Assembly (NCBI RefSeq): GCF_010093535.1
Contig: NW_022985173.1
Coordinates: 936,855-1,000,854, forward strand
Direction of reading: 5' to 3'
From: Lindgomyces ingoldianus
Taxonomy: Eukaryota; Ascomycota; Dothideomycetes; Pleosporales; Lindgomycetaceae
DNA: 64,000 bases
In this document: one piece after another, positions 177-64,000 of the stretch
How positions within the stretch are numbered: position 1 is the stretch's first letter
Layout: every line of letters starts with the position of its first letter
The notes under the pieces: generated by a model
What the model was told of the DNA's origin: nothing
Databases searched by the model: none
The model's input: only the letters and a program-made list of their open reading frames with translations
Translations under genes and position numbers: made by a program

Positions 177-1585
177 ATGGCGCCCGCGGTGGCCCATCTG
201 CATAAACTGGTGGCCAAGAACGCGAAAGTGCTCAAGTGAGTTATTGGAGCCTGGATTGTGAGAGTTCCTTTACTGACGACGGAGGTAGGGCTGCCTGGAA
301 ACATGCGGCAAGTCTTGTGCAAAGCCAATTACCACCTTCTATACGACCTACACAGGCCGAATTACAGCCCATACTTGCACGCAATACTCCCCGGCATCCG
401 ATCCATCCCGCCGCCTTCCTCAAGCAGAGCAAGGGCCGATGGTATAGTACTCACAGTGCTATCAACGCTACTGTCCGACGTTTCACGACATCTGCCCCAA
501 GATCCTCTGGCCTTGTACTCAAGTATGACCGATCTTCTTTCCCAAAGTCCCGTATTGGTTCCGCCGTCAACAACCTGTCCGGCCGTGCTCCTTTCGCATC
601 CACCCTTCGACCGAACCTGACTGGAGGAACACTCAATAGGACCGCTGGAGGATACACGTGGGGCTCTGGGCGTTCTGGAGGTGCCAGGCACTTCTCCCAT
701 GGCCCAGCAGCTCCCGCCCAGGTCATTCATAACGTTTCTCAGGCGGTCCGTGCTTTCATGGTCTCGGGCCAAAAAGCACAATTTGATGGTCTCAACCCGC
801 AGACCGGTGAGAAACGGTACAAGACTGTCTCAGCTTTGCAAAATAAAGTGAACCGCACACTCAATAAGGCACCCAAGGCAACTCCGGGATCTCATATCAG
901 CTTCAACATCAATCCTACTATCACGGCCCTTAGCCCGTTGAAGGCTGTCAAGGGTTTTTCTTCTTTCGCAGAAGAGAAAGATTCTCTTAATCGTGAAGGT
1001 CTCCTAGATGTTCTTTCCGTAGATTTCTCAAGGGCAGTTAAAGAGCTTGCTGCAGTCCTCAAGGATTTGCAACGACTCTCTAACTTAGGCGACTTACCTA
1101 TTACCTACGAGAATTCTACGTTAAAGGTTCATTTCCCTGGCTGTGATGCTGGCGCCGTGGAAACAATCTGCAACGAGCTTGGCGTTCAACGTGGAGTAGT
1201 GTACCAGGACGAAGATTTCGATACTTTTGTCGGGACGGATATTGCCCTTCTGTTTCCCTTTGCTCCAAGCCGGACGCCCTCAGAATGTTCTTTCTATGAG
1301 AAACCAATCACCGGCAGACAACAGCCAATCGATTGGCAGAACATGTTATCACCTCCAGTCATGAGCCTCGACGAGTATTCGACTCACTCTGAGGATGGAT
1401 TAGACTTTGAACTCTTTCCAAACCCGTGGGTCTCGTCTCCATCTGGCTATGATAGCTTGCACACGAGCGATGTAGAAGATACAATGGCTTTTCCAGATGA
1501 ACACGACGTACATACTCCTCTCGAGTATCAGGGCATAGAAGGCATTTACAGGTTCATGGAGCAGTGCGAGTCTAGTCACATATAA
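177..1585 (+). CDS. Conserved fungal protein with mitochondrial-presequence-like N-terminus
   Basis: Two exons, 177-235 and 289-1585, give about 451 aa. The 53-nt intron has a GTGAGT donor, a CTGAC branch site and a GTAG acceptor. The ATG at 177 (MAPAVAHLHKLVAKNAK...) was chosen because it splices in phase into the long frame. The N-terminus is rich in basic, Ala and Ser residues with few acids up to about residue 140, which resembles an organelle-targeting sequence. A motif near residue 170 (NVSQAVRAFMVSGQKAQFDG) and an acidic C-terminal third follow. From memory, related Pezizomycotina proteins are often labelled casein kinase II beta 2 subunit. I see none of the CK2-beta zinc-ribbon cysteines, so I do not adopt that function. 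The gene is probably real; its role is unknown. Confidence 0.7.
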
Positions 1586-20222: not shown

Positions 20223-21928
20223 CTACTGGTACCTCCAGGGCTCTGGTGACTTTGCTGGCTCAGGCACCCTTGCTGGCTCTGTCACGTCGCTCTTTCGCAT
20301 AGCTTTTTCCTTCCGCACTGGTTTCGACAGATCCGACTCTACTTCCTGTCCTTGCTCTGAGTTGGGATTTGACTCCGGACACTTTCGCTTACGACCACGC
20401 TTTCCCTTGCCCGCAGTAGCTTTGGCATTCTCCTTCTCAGCACGCTTCTTCCTCGCCTGCTCAAGGTCTTCGTAGCTCATTACCTTCGCTTTCCCCAAGA
20501 CAACAGACCTGGTCGATCGGCGGACCTTAGCTTCTTTGTTTAACTTCGACAAGAACTGATTCTGGTCCTCAAGGAGAGCCTGTTTGGCGAAGGATACCTG
20601 AGCGGCATTCGCAAGTTTCTGTACGTGTCTCTGCAGGCGATGTTTGCTTGATTTGTCGGAAAGTGTGTGGACATCCCGCTGGATTAATTCATGTAAAGAC
20701 GTCAGATCCTCCGTCATTACTGGCGTTACCGGCGTTTTCAACACTTCTACTTGCGGACAGGATTCCTCGTTCAAAATACTTGGCTCAGGAAGAGGCTTTG
20801 GCATACTACGGAGTACCCTCTCTGGATTGAATGGAAATAATCCCGTGGCTGCCCACGAAGCGGTGATGTTCCTTTTAGAAAACGCCTTTTCTCTGGCAGG
20901 CTTGTAAAGGGAGGTGAAATGCTCCTTGCCGACGTTGTCTAGACCTCCACGAAGCAGTCGTTCAACTTCGTCCCGATAGGCTGCTTTTAGAGGCGCAAAG
21001 ACTCCAACGTCGCAGGGCTGGAGCTTGTGAGAAGTATGAGAGGGGAGACGACATAGAAGAATGTTGGCTTTGAAGCAAAATTCTAGGATCTCAAGCGTTT
21101 CATGGCTCCCAAAACCGTCGCAGATTAATACTCGCGGTCTTCCGTTAGCCCGCTCCCGAGTTTGGGGGTCGAACACACGGGTCAGCCATTCTAAGCTGAT
21201 TTTAGAATCGTTATACCCATTCTCTGAGTGCGCATAGTGCCAGCCAGGCGTCGGATACGTTGTCCAGTTGCTTCTGTGGGTTGAAGCTGGCCAGATAACA
21301 AGCGGGAGCAGCGGCCTACCATCGCCACTCACACACTCAACAACAGTTACTACCGTTCGCTTGACGCCTGCTCCTCGATGTTTGCGCAGGTCATCCTTAC
21401 CTACAAGGACTTTTACAGAGCCAAGCATGCTTAGCATGACTCCTGTCTCTTCCATGTTATAGACATTCTCGGGCAGGATACCTGGATCCTTGATTACGGG
21501 TTCAATTACATCAAACCACTCTACAATCTTCGGGTATGTATTGTTCCCATGACGCTTCCAGTCTATTGCCTTGACCGTTCTCGCCTTGAGTTCGGGATGG
21601 CGTTTCTCGAAGGCTCGAGGCCAGTTCTTGCCCGGGGCTTTGCGGTGGGTGAACGCTGTCGGGCGAGGATAAGGGCTAGGGAAGGTATATACTTGATACG
21701 GACTGGATATCCAAGGTTAGACATTAGTAATAAGAATGCAACCAGCGCTTTCTCTTCTTCTGGGGTGAGGTATTGCTGTTTCCGGGCTTTTTCCTTCTCG
21801 GAGGGCCGTCCGCGAGCGCGGCAATAGAGCGTGGTGAGAGGTACGCCGGCATATTCCGACCGGGCAGCCCATGTCTGGGGTAAATCTGCGGGGAAACCTT
21901 CTGCCAGTGCCTGGCTGGCCCGGTCCAT
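20223..21928 (-). pseudogene. Pogo/Fot1-type transposase, frameshifted
   Basis: Minus-strand DDE transposase. The N-terminal piece (21928 down to about 21640) has the pogo-type helix-turn-helix region (RASQALAEGF, AGVPLTTLYCRARG). The remainder runs from about 21640 to 20223 in another frame: YNMEETGVMLSMLGSVKVLVGKDD, GWHYAHSENGYNDSKISLEWL, PRVLICDGFGSHET, PSHTSHKLQPCDVGVFAPLK, then a basic nuclear tail. The frames meet at the four-base G run at 21634-21637 (C run on the minus strand), consistent with loss of one base. The first catalytic position reads E where pogo/Fot1 relatives usually have D; the second and third acids (ICDG, PCDVG) are kept. This single copy is therefore probably dead. 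Terminal inverted repeats were sought and not resolved; the sequence around 22050-22097 is the best candidate for one end. Confidence 0.85.
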
Positions 21929-62112: not shown

Positions 62113-63551
62113 TTGAGCTTAAATGATTCAATTTGATTAGATATTAGTTCTAACAAGAGTAAAGGAAAGAAAGAGATAAAGATAGTGAGCGCGATAACTG
62201 ATAGCACCCTAAACCGCAAGCAGGCAACAGCATCAAGCTAAAGTGTCGACAGTGTCACGGAAGGTGAATTGCATATGCAATGGAAAGGTAGTGAACTGTA
62301 CAGCAGGTTCTCGCACAACACGGAATATGACCAGTAGCCCATTTGCTAAACTTATTACTAGAACAAGAGAGATCTTTAGGGACGCCAATATCTGTCCTAA
62401 ATCAGATTCTTGTCGTGTTCCATCATTTTTGCTAATATTCAGCACGAGTAGAATTAGGAGGATATGCTTGCAGGCTGCTGGATCGCCCATATCGTCAGTG
62501 TTCTTTCCTGAATCAAACTCACATTTCAGCATTAAGATAAAAACTTAACAAGTGAGCCGTTGCTGAGTTAGTGCATGATGGCGGTGACACGTCACTGTGA
62601 GATCATGTCTTGATTTGGGGTCTTACAGTCTGGTACTTCCAGAGGCTCCAGGGATTAGTCAGCCTTGTATTCCACAACTGATCCAGACAGATAGACAACG
62701 GGTAGCAAACACGCCTGCAGCTGGTTATGGGGCGATATCGGAACGCCCAGAAGCCTCATGCGGAGGGTGGAGAGATATCGATTTTGAGAATTCCAATGGG
62801 CGGTATGCTTCAATCAACACATGTAGTGACCCGCGCTTAGTATAGATGCTCTAGTGAATCTATGGTGTCGGAATAACTCAAATTTGCTAGATCAGCCAAA
62901 GGCTAGATTGTCTGCTGTGCAGAACTGGCTGTGGCAGTAAACTCGATTGTGCAAAGAGAAAACGCAGATCAAGAATCGGTCAGATAACTGAGTTCTTCTA
63001 TTGGACCAGATTTGCTACGAACTAGTTATGCATCATTACCATCCACTAATGACTTAGAACTACAAGGGAGTGTATACCTCAACAGACCGGAATTTTAACG
63101 AAGAAGCACGACAAGTTCTACCATCCGTCAATTCCTGGTAGAGAACCATACGTTCCACCTCAAAGCGAGTTGAATAGGTCATCCGGTACCAATCCCTCAA
63201 AAAGTGCACTAGAGCCATTTAGTTGGATATCAAAACTCGTTGCTGATACAATGAAGGAGTTTAGGGGACCATTTCGTGGTGTTGAAACATACTATGTACT
63301 TCAAGCTCGGGCCGGCAGAAAGTCCGTGGAAAGCTTGATTGACTATCGGATCAACACGGACCACCTACTTCGTAGGCTGGTCTGTTCTCAGGCACGTGCA
63401 AGGTTACAACTCGGCTCTCCTTCAGCCGACCCTCACCGCTTCCTCCGTGATCGGCGATTGCTAGCGCCAATTCGACGCAAAACCTGCTCATGGGCCCACA
63501 AATCCGTTGCACCGGGCAACAGGCAGCCTCCGAAACCCCGCCTCTGACGCC
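62113..63551. other. Intergenic upstream of U2 snRNA gene
   Basis: AT-rich until about 63170, then more GC-rich towards the U2 promoter. A 125-codon ORF at 63170-63547 shows no recognised motif and runs into the U2 promoter, so I do not call it. Confidence 0.4.
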
Positions 63552-63559
63552 TATATAAA
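63552..63559 (+). promoter_or_regulatory. TATA box of U2 snRNA gene
   Basis: TATATAAA lies 32 to 25 nt before the inferred U2 5' end at 63584, the spacing expected for an RNA polymerase II promoter. Confidence 0.75.
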
Positions 63560-63583
63560 CCCGCCCTCGCCCTTCTTTTAGAA

Positions 63584-63848
63584 ATCAGCTTTTCTTTGCC
63601 TTTTGGCTTAGATCAAGTGTAGTAGTGAGTTTCAATTTCCTGATTCGGACAATCTTTGCATTTGACGGCTTTGGGCTAACGATTTTCCAGTCTGTTCTTT
63701 TCAGTTTAATCTCTGAAACGTGTCTACGGACACATTTTCAAGATTATTCCTATTTTTGAACGCGGTCCTCCTCTCACTGGGCTTGCTCATAGTTGCGGAC
63801 ACAGTGACGCCGGCCCCAGCACTACCGCCGGCTGTCGCGAACCTGCAC
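63584..63848 (+). ncRNA. U2: U2 spliceosomal snRNA, gene split by an intron
   Basis: Exon 1 (63584-63624) ends with GCCTTTTGGC, TTAGATCAAG and TGTAGTA: U2 stem I, the U6-pairing segment and the branch-point recognition element GUAGUA. Exon 2 (63691 to about 63848) starts TCTGTTCTTTTCAG, exactly what follows GUAGUA in canonical U2. It then has stem-loop IIa, a perfect GUGUC-UACG-GACAC hairpin (IIb, 63720-63733), an Sm site AUUUUUG (63752-63758), stem-loop III with GGGCUUGCUCA closed by GUCC/GGAC, and stem-loop IV closed by GCCGGC/GCCGGC around CCCAGCACUACC. The spliced RNA is about 199 nt, typical for fungal U2. Exact 5' and 3' ends are estimates. Confidence 0.93.
63625..63690 (+). other. Spliceosomal-type intron inside U2 snRNA gene
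   Basis: This 66-nt insert has a GTGAGT 5' splice site, a GGGCTAAC branch site (A at 63679, 11 nt before the end), a T-rich stretch and a CCAG 3' splice site. These are the same signals as in the protein-coding introns of this window. Removing it joins GTAGTA to TCTGTTC and restores the universal U2 sequence without a base gained or lost. Confidence 0.9.
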
Positions 63849-64000
63849 TCCTTTTCATTGATGCATCTGGCTGTGGCTGGGTGATCGAGGAAGAGGTTTT
63901 GCTGTTTTGTTTCGTTTGTACTTTACGCTTGCTGTAATGAGAACTCTGCGTATCGACTGCCCTAGCAATCCTCGCACGGTTAATCAATTGCTCTACGCCC
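63849..64000. other. Right-edge flank of U2 gene
   Basis: Downstream sequence to the window edge. The 3'-processing signals of fungal snRNA genes are not recognisable by eye. Confidence 0.35.

Follow-up and report, generated by a model that had tools for sequence, protein, structure and literature searches.

A probable spliceosomal-type intron behind the branch-recognition sequence of a U2 snRNA gene in Lindgomyces ingoldianus, within a U2 family of zero to three intron-like segments per intact copy

The window analysed here, a stretch of 64,000 nucleotides from the Lindgomyces ingoldianus (Pleosporales) assembly (68.4 Mb in 99 contigs; C12:936855-1000854), contains a U2 snRNA gene that is one of at least eight U2-derived loci in this genome and that appears to carry a spliceosomal-type intron immediately behind the branch-recognition sequence GUAGUA, with a transcript that is likely spliced into a canonical U2 (a reading to which we assign a probability of roughly 85%). 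The gene has intron signals, a TATA box and a downstream element, and it has paralogues with zero to three intron-like segments whose helices covary once the exons are joined in silico. A further seven or more loci derived from U2 lie outside the window, and the genome also shows four additional U2 intron sites as well as interrupted copies of U1 and probably U4. The attribution to Lindgomyces ingoldianus (Ascomycota, Dothideomycetes, Pleosporales) agrees with an intact protein frame at window positions 236-1585, which matches a protein of this species with 100% identity over 96% of the query; among the best 120 of 1815 matches, the next named ones reach 77-80%.

The identity of the window copy (referred to as L002) was established with cmscan, which matched RF00004 at window positions 63587-63846 with 82.4 bits (E-value of 3.1e-16, model positions 1-192 of 192, cut-off of 46), and the branch-recognition GUAGUA, the Sm site and stem-loops I to IV are all present. 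The cmscan alignment takes up the 66-base insert as a misplaced gap. In the letters of window positions 62800-64000, exon 1 ends in GTGTAGTA at 63624, intron A runs from GTGAGT to GGGCTAACGATTTTCCAG, and exon 2 opens with TCTGTTC at 63691. The intron has GT-AG ends, a fungal 5′ splice site, a branch site and a 3′ splice site (CAG, within the CCAG that closes the intron at 63690), with 11 bases following the branch A. Since both L001 and L004 are continuous at this site (an unbroken GTAGTATCTGTTC), the boundaries are set by homology and not by eye alone, and removal of the 66 bases from the window copy restores GUAGUAUCUGUUC. The 66-nt intron-like split behind GUAGUA that the initial annotation had described in a U2 gene is thus real, with coordinates that were right within a few bases, and its further proposal of an mRNA-type intron at exactly this position in a filamentous ascomycete is supported as far as the gene sequence goes. 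A processed or degenerate U2 pseudogene was considered for the window copy and rejected, as the TATA box, core, Sm site, helices and downstream element have all been retained.

Table 1. Features of the window U2 gene (positions in the window) and the U2-derived loci of the assembly.
Feature or locus	Location	Strand	Basis or content
TATA box TATATAAA	63552..63559	+	sequence; 35 bases upstream of the U2 match start
U2 exon 1 (stem I and branch-recognition GUAGUA, 63619-63624)	63587..63624	+	RF00004 match; 5′ end taken as match start
Intron A, 66 bases	63625..63690	+	boundaries from uninterrupted L001 and insert-free L004; homologous intron in L003
Intron A, 5′ splice site GTGAGT	63625-63630	+	intron A signal
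Intron A, branch site CTAAC (branch A 63679)	63676-63680	+	intron A signal
Intron A, CAG	63688-63690	+	intron A signal
U2 exon 2	63691..63846	+	RF00004 match; helices backed by covariation among four paralogues
Stem-loop IIa arms	63699-63704 and 63713-63718	+	U2 exon 2
Stem-loop IIb arms	63720-63724 and 63729-63733	+	U2 exon 2
Sm site ATTTTTGA	63752-63759	+	U2 exon 2
Stem-loop III		+	U2 exon 2
Stem-loop IV	63804-63838	+	U2 exon 2
Downstream element TTTCATTGA...GAGGAAG	63853..63893	+	pattern search of genome and predicted hairpin fold
L001	C31:490660-490854		no intron; 106.8 bits, top RF00004 score
L002	window		intron A at GUAGUA/UCUGUUC, 66 bases
L003	C12, 7 kb downstream of the window copy, same strand		introns A (66) and B (60)
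L004	C7		introns C (59, GAUCAAG/UGUAGUA), B (49) and D (49, GGCCCCAG/CACUACC)
L030	C23		degenerate; E and A (51-base GT-AG), plus B segment without GT
L005	C58		degenerate; E; GAAAUA in place of GUAGUA
L006	C9		degenerate; lacks the 5′ end; B and a remnant of intron A
L034	C22		degenerate; 3′ half only, with intron D

Intron signals were scored against a full definition consisting of GTRNGT, YAG and a branch motif near the end, which nine of the 12 intron-like segments scored satisfy; the remaining three are the B segments of L004 (GCTTGT), L006 (GTAATG) and L030 (CCACGT). When the letters of the window intron A were shuffled, the signal set arose in 2 of 200,000 shuffles, and for each of the other qualifying segments in 0 or 1 of 50,000. 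Within the window the segment is single-copy, as would suit a chance insertion or an assembly error that happens to resemble an intron, but the shuffles speak against such an origin and the paralogues already contradict it: L003 carries a homologous segment of 66 bases at the same site, and L030 a GT-AG segment of 51 bases, which leaves this explanation with next to no credibility. The three clearest introns inferred for protein genes of the window, taken from a noisy frame-bridging list, are close to the U2 introns, with lengths of 45, 47 and 54 bases and a branch A placed 9-10 bases ahead of the end. Elsewhere in the window, a minus-strand frame at 20223-21455 carries a DDE_1 transposase-type domain.

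The count of at least eight U2-derived loci is a lower bound, with six loci obtained from an Rfam search of the genome and two more, which that search missed, from a search with the 3′ half. Four loci look intact and contain zero (L001), one (L002), two (L003) or three (L004) intron-like segments, and four (L030, L005, L006 and L034) are degenerate. Their insertions define five intron sites (A-E), two of which (A and C) flank the branch-recognition bases. The junctions of sites A to D are fixed by paralogues that are free of the insert. Site E falls within the 5′ arm of stem I; since both E-bearing copies are degenerate, its ends were placed in part by the GT-AG rule, and removal of E leaves extra bases in L030. 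Intron B of L003 interrupts CUUUUCAG/UUUAAUC, so that the middle exon of this copy counts only 14 bases, and intron B of L004 begins with GCTTGT, which points to a GC-AG intron or, alternatively, to a donor that lies four bases further on.

The initial annotation had raised the question of an intronless U2 copy elsewhere in the assembly, and L001 (106.8 bits; Table 1) is such a copy. It has the same TATA box and downstream element as the other U2 copies, and it holds the single occurrence of the continuous core GATCAAGTGTAGTATCTGTTCT in the 68.4 Mb genome when up to two mismatches are allowed. Among the best 120 of 140 protein matches of one frame on its contig (L009:7013-8422), the top two reach 80% and 79%, the named ones include Ascochyta, Nothophoma, Ophiobolus and Alternaria (48-57%) and, at lower scores, Colletotrichum, Penicillium and Aspergillus, and no Lindgomyces protein is listed; the contig is therefore compatible with Pleosporales, although the species is not proven by the single frame tested. 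With an uninterrupted U2 gene present in this assembly, the making of U2 need not hinge on the splicing of U2 itself. This contradicts the closed self-dependent loop that had been proposed for the window gene, since L001 and the U2 that the cell already contains would break the circularity.

By the same token, the presence of an intronless U2 implies that the window copy could be silent. It might then be a dying duplicate, with L001 as the sole supplier of U2 and with an intron that stays because nothing removes it. L001 indeed combines an uninterrupted structure and the top score with the only genomic site of the continuous core, and the four other U2-derived loci mentioned above are clearly degenerate; since each of the four still has at least one of the intron sites occupied by an insertion, intron-bearing copies do decay in Lindgomyces ingoldianus. 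The retained TATA box and downstream element of the window copy argue against this explanation, as do exons that are constrained while the intron drifts, a stem IIb that was altered by paired exchanges, and joined forms that lie nearer to the U2 consensus than L001 does. On balance, a silent duplicate is unlikely, and the comparisons behind this judgement are as follows.

Between the window copy and L003, intron A differs at 11 of 66 positions, all between intron positions 10 and 56 with none in the first nine or last ten bases, while the exons differ at 9 of 193 positions, six of which form three complete pair exchanges in stem IIb. The excess of differences in the intron over the exons is significant both when exon positions 69-80 are left out (11/66 vs. 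3/181; Fisher p-value of 4.5e-5) and when stem IIb is included (11/66 vs. 9/193; p-value of 0.005). In the flanks of the same two copies, the two nearest upstream alignment blocks are identical at 34/54 and 82/98 positions, and downstream 87/95 and then 47/94 aligned bases are identical.

Covariation was examined in the four intact copies (36 pairs, 144 helix cells), i.e., with only four paralogues behind it. Of these cells, 97.9% are paired and three are unpaired. Two-sided changes occur at 10 of the 36 pairs, compared to a mean of 3.3 in shuffles (none of 500 reaching 10) and to 0-3 when slid. Five of the ten depend on L001 alone (all four in stem IIa and one in stem III), and the four two-sided changes in stem IIb fall among L002, L003 and L004. 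When forms joined in silico were scored by identity to the Rfam consensus line, the match at 72 strongly conserved positions amounted to 64 for L002, 64 for L003 and 62 for L004, against 55 for L001, so that the joined forms of the interrupted copies look the more canonical U2, and L001 looks like an unusual but well-paired version. At the same 72 positions, the degenerate copies L030 and L005 score 56 (on par with L001) and 44, respectively.

In the reading that the window copy yields functional U2, the gene would probably be transcribed by RNA polymerase II, after which intron A would be excised by the existing spliceosome with the help of pre-existing U2, among it that made from L001. Trimming of the 3′ end would take place at the predicted downstream hairpin, and the joined RNA would fold as a normal U2 and assemble into a working U2 snRNP. 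Introns would have been gained at several sites over time and would persist because the spliceosome removes them precisely, and intron B would either have been precisely lost from the window copy or have been gained elsewhere.

It had also been proposed that the unspliced precursor serves as a decoy or as a feedback sensor that reads U2 activity. Such an RNA would hold GUAGUA next to GUGAGU, and the L002 precursor is predicted to fold with most of GUAGUA paired to the intron, but in the precursor of L003 GUAGUA is paired to a lesser extent, and L001 lacks an intron altogether. Moreover, the duplex energy of the branch-recognition stretch with its own intron was compared to 1,000 dinucleotide shuffles, and pairing as good was reached by 15% (L002), 27% (L003) and 18% (L030) of the shuffles for intron A and by 40% for intron C of L004. 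Masking by the intron was rejected on these grounds, the pairing of intron A with the branch-recognition sequence being no stronger than that of shuffled introns, and the decoy or sensor role that had been based on it is unsupported and very improbable.

The flanking signals recur across the U2 family and beyond it. A TATATAA motif precedes the AGCTT start by 35-49 bases in L001, L002, L003, L004 and L030, and the degenerate L005 has CATAAAA at 44 bases before the start. The downstream element, i.e., TTTCATTGA and GAGGAAG separated by a variable stretch, follows most U1, U2 and U4 genes and is predicted to form a hairpin of which the middle differs between genes. A relaxed pattern of this element matches at 15 of the 17 U1, U2, U4 and U1-like loci tested (at L005 far downstream), with L030 and L026 as the two loci that lack it, and was absent at both U5 genes, the three U6 genes tested and U3. 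A strict pattern yielded eight matches genome-wide, compared to one for a reversed control; they comprise three U2 genes, a U1 gene, a U4 gene, two further U1-like genes and one chance-looking match (L049). From this distribution and the predicted fold, the element is a probable signal for snRNA 3′-end processing. The pattern also picks out new snRNA-like genes.

Interruptions are not confined to U2. Three U1 matches (L018, L019 and L020) were obtained from Rfam, all below the cut-off. L019 is uninterrupted (AAACTTACCTTG), whereas L018 (C57:155561) contains a 53-base intron-like segment (ATACTT/GTTCGT...GCTAACATTTCGATAG/ACCTTG) and L020 (C26:454976) one of 56 bases (ATACTTA/GTGAGT...GCTAACAACGCTCTAG/CCTTG). 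Both splits fall inside the 5′ splice-site-recognition sequence, with junctions one base apart, and none of 100,000 shuffles of either segment satisfies the signals. Stem-loop I differs between L018 and L020 by paired exchanges. If transcription starts at AUACUU, the presumed start, U1 exon 1 is predicted to be just 6-7 bases long. Two further loci, L048 (C6:68295) and L052 (C23:877953), are U1-like by eye, with a CATTGCAC loop, an Sm-like site and the downstream element, and L048 shows, in addition, a TATA box together with a 5′ arm that is altered and reads AUACUGCCUGC; neither locus gave an Rfam match up to an E-value of 1.

Four matches were found for U4, of which L025 (C39:493631) has a likely 52-base intron near its 5′ end; its Sm site appears altered by eye. 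In L023, L024 and L026 no intron was seen by eye. The single U3 match has a likely 50-base intron, as expected for Pezizomycotina according to PMC5832005. No intron-sized insert was present across the model in the two U5 matches, nor in the 12 U6 matches (eight of them read with flanks), although the very 5′ end of a low-scoring match could hide one. Both U5 genes, L021 (C32:492398) and L022 (C39:490847), resemble the best U6 genes in their T-rich 3′ flanks and in a TATA box that precedes them by about 30 bases, and U5 may possibly use another polymerase or 3′ pathway than U1, U2 and U4. One U1, one U5 and two U4 copies lie within about 86 kb at C39:431536-517064.

As to the origin of the introns, sites A and C border the branch-recognition sequence of U2 and both U1 sites lie inside the sequence that recognizes 5′ splice sites. 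Sites B, C and D follow AG, a common context of intron insertion. The placement of two of the five U2 sites at branch-recognition borders has a binomial probability of 0.021 in a test chosen after the sites had been seen, and three of seven sites, once U4 and U1 (with its adjacent pair of sites treated as a single one) are included, give 0.0038 at an assumed 5% per site, likewise post hoc. Reverse splicing is thus a possible source, with sites suggestively near intron-contacting bases in a count that is small and post hoc. A more far-reaching version holds that the spliceosome goes on adding introns to its own RNAs where these make contact with introns, with the interrupted copies as the main supply of U2 and the divergent, intronless L001 keeping the loop alive. 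Introns would then have entered U2 to either side of its branch-recognition sequence and U1 within its 5′ splice-site-recognition sequence, and the ladder of zero, one, two and three introns in the U2 family would record gains and losses. We regard this version as tentative and rather doubtful.

In a tree of the joined exons of five copies, the window copy groups with L003 (support of 70) and L030 joins them (91), which makes a single gain of intron A plausible. A tree of the 3′ halves of all eight copies, in which L001 was placed with L006, was set aside because it is poorly supported (0.26-0.81). A DNA search with the 66 bases of intron A returned only the intron itself; since the known relative in L003 was missed, this search is insensitive. 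With its 23-base core, at up to three mismatches, only L002 and L003 were found in the genome. An introner-like element, which calls for many copies in unrelated genes, was rejected for intron A on these intron A searches alone.

The closest precedent is the U2 gene of the basidiomycete yeast Rhodotorula hasegawae, in which Takahashi et al. reportedly described an mRNA-type intron in 1993 (Mol Cell Biol 13:5613, cited in PMC2586383). This intron is said to be of spliceosomal type, the only one in that gene, about 60 bp long and immediately downstream of the branch-recognition sequence, at the same site as intron A of the window copy; it lowers the novelty of the single window observation. The yeast belongs to another phylum and reportedly has one U2 intron, whereas here five sites are found among paralogues with zero to three introns, including an intronless copy; the U2 introns of Lindgomyces ingoldianus are predicted from gene sequence. 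Takahashi et al. are also said to have found, in 1996, introns in conserved snRNA sequence of U1 and U5 of R. hasegawae, whereas both U5 matches of Lindgomyces ingoldianus look uninterrupted. Fungal U6 and U3 introns, reportedly covered by Canzler et al. in 2016, are likewise spliceosomal introns in small structured RNAs; in contrast to the fungal U6 cases, U6 is here without an intron-sized insert while U2, U1 and probably U4 are split.

Canzler et al. 2017 (PMC5832005) name U3 and U6 as the sole small structured RNAs in which interruptions are known to be frequent, and they describe genomes that hold interrupted alongside intronless copies of U3. Spliceosomal introns also occur in ascomycete ribosomal RNA genes (Cubero 2000 and Bhattacharya 2000, as cited in PMC11889510), likewise in conserved non-coding RNA, but rRNA is not part of the splicing machine. 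In Dothideomycetes, introner-like elements are a case of intron gain, including parallel gains at close positions (PMC4457414). Introners multiply as similar copies in many genes, whereas for intron A no relative was detected outside the U2 loci. Among the papers listed in searches of an open-access full-text library, none was seen to report an intron in the U1, U2 or U4 gene of an ascomycete. Within these open-access searches, an ascomycete with interrupted U1, U2 and probably U4, five U2 intron sites and graded paralogues thus appears to be new.

It is rare for the RNAs that remove introns to contain introns themselves, and such cases have a direct bearing on the question of intron gain. Annotation would profit as well, because the Rfam cut-off excludes the interrupted U1 genes here and the Rfam search overlooked two of the U2-derived loci. 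The Rhodotorula work is said to have led to the old proposal that introns reverse-splice into an snRNA where it contacts the spliceosome. A second lineage from another phylum, with split and unsplit copies in one genome and with insertions in U1, U2 and probably U4, would make this proposal testable via related species, and the sister copies with introns at further sites could help to test how introns enter splicing RNAs. Lindgomyces ingoldianus would moreover offer a natural system, open to genetic probing, in which the production of U2 would depend partly on U2.
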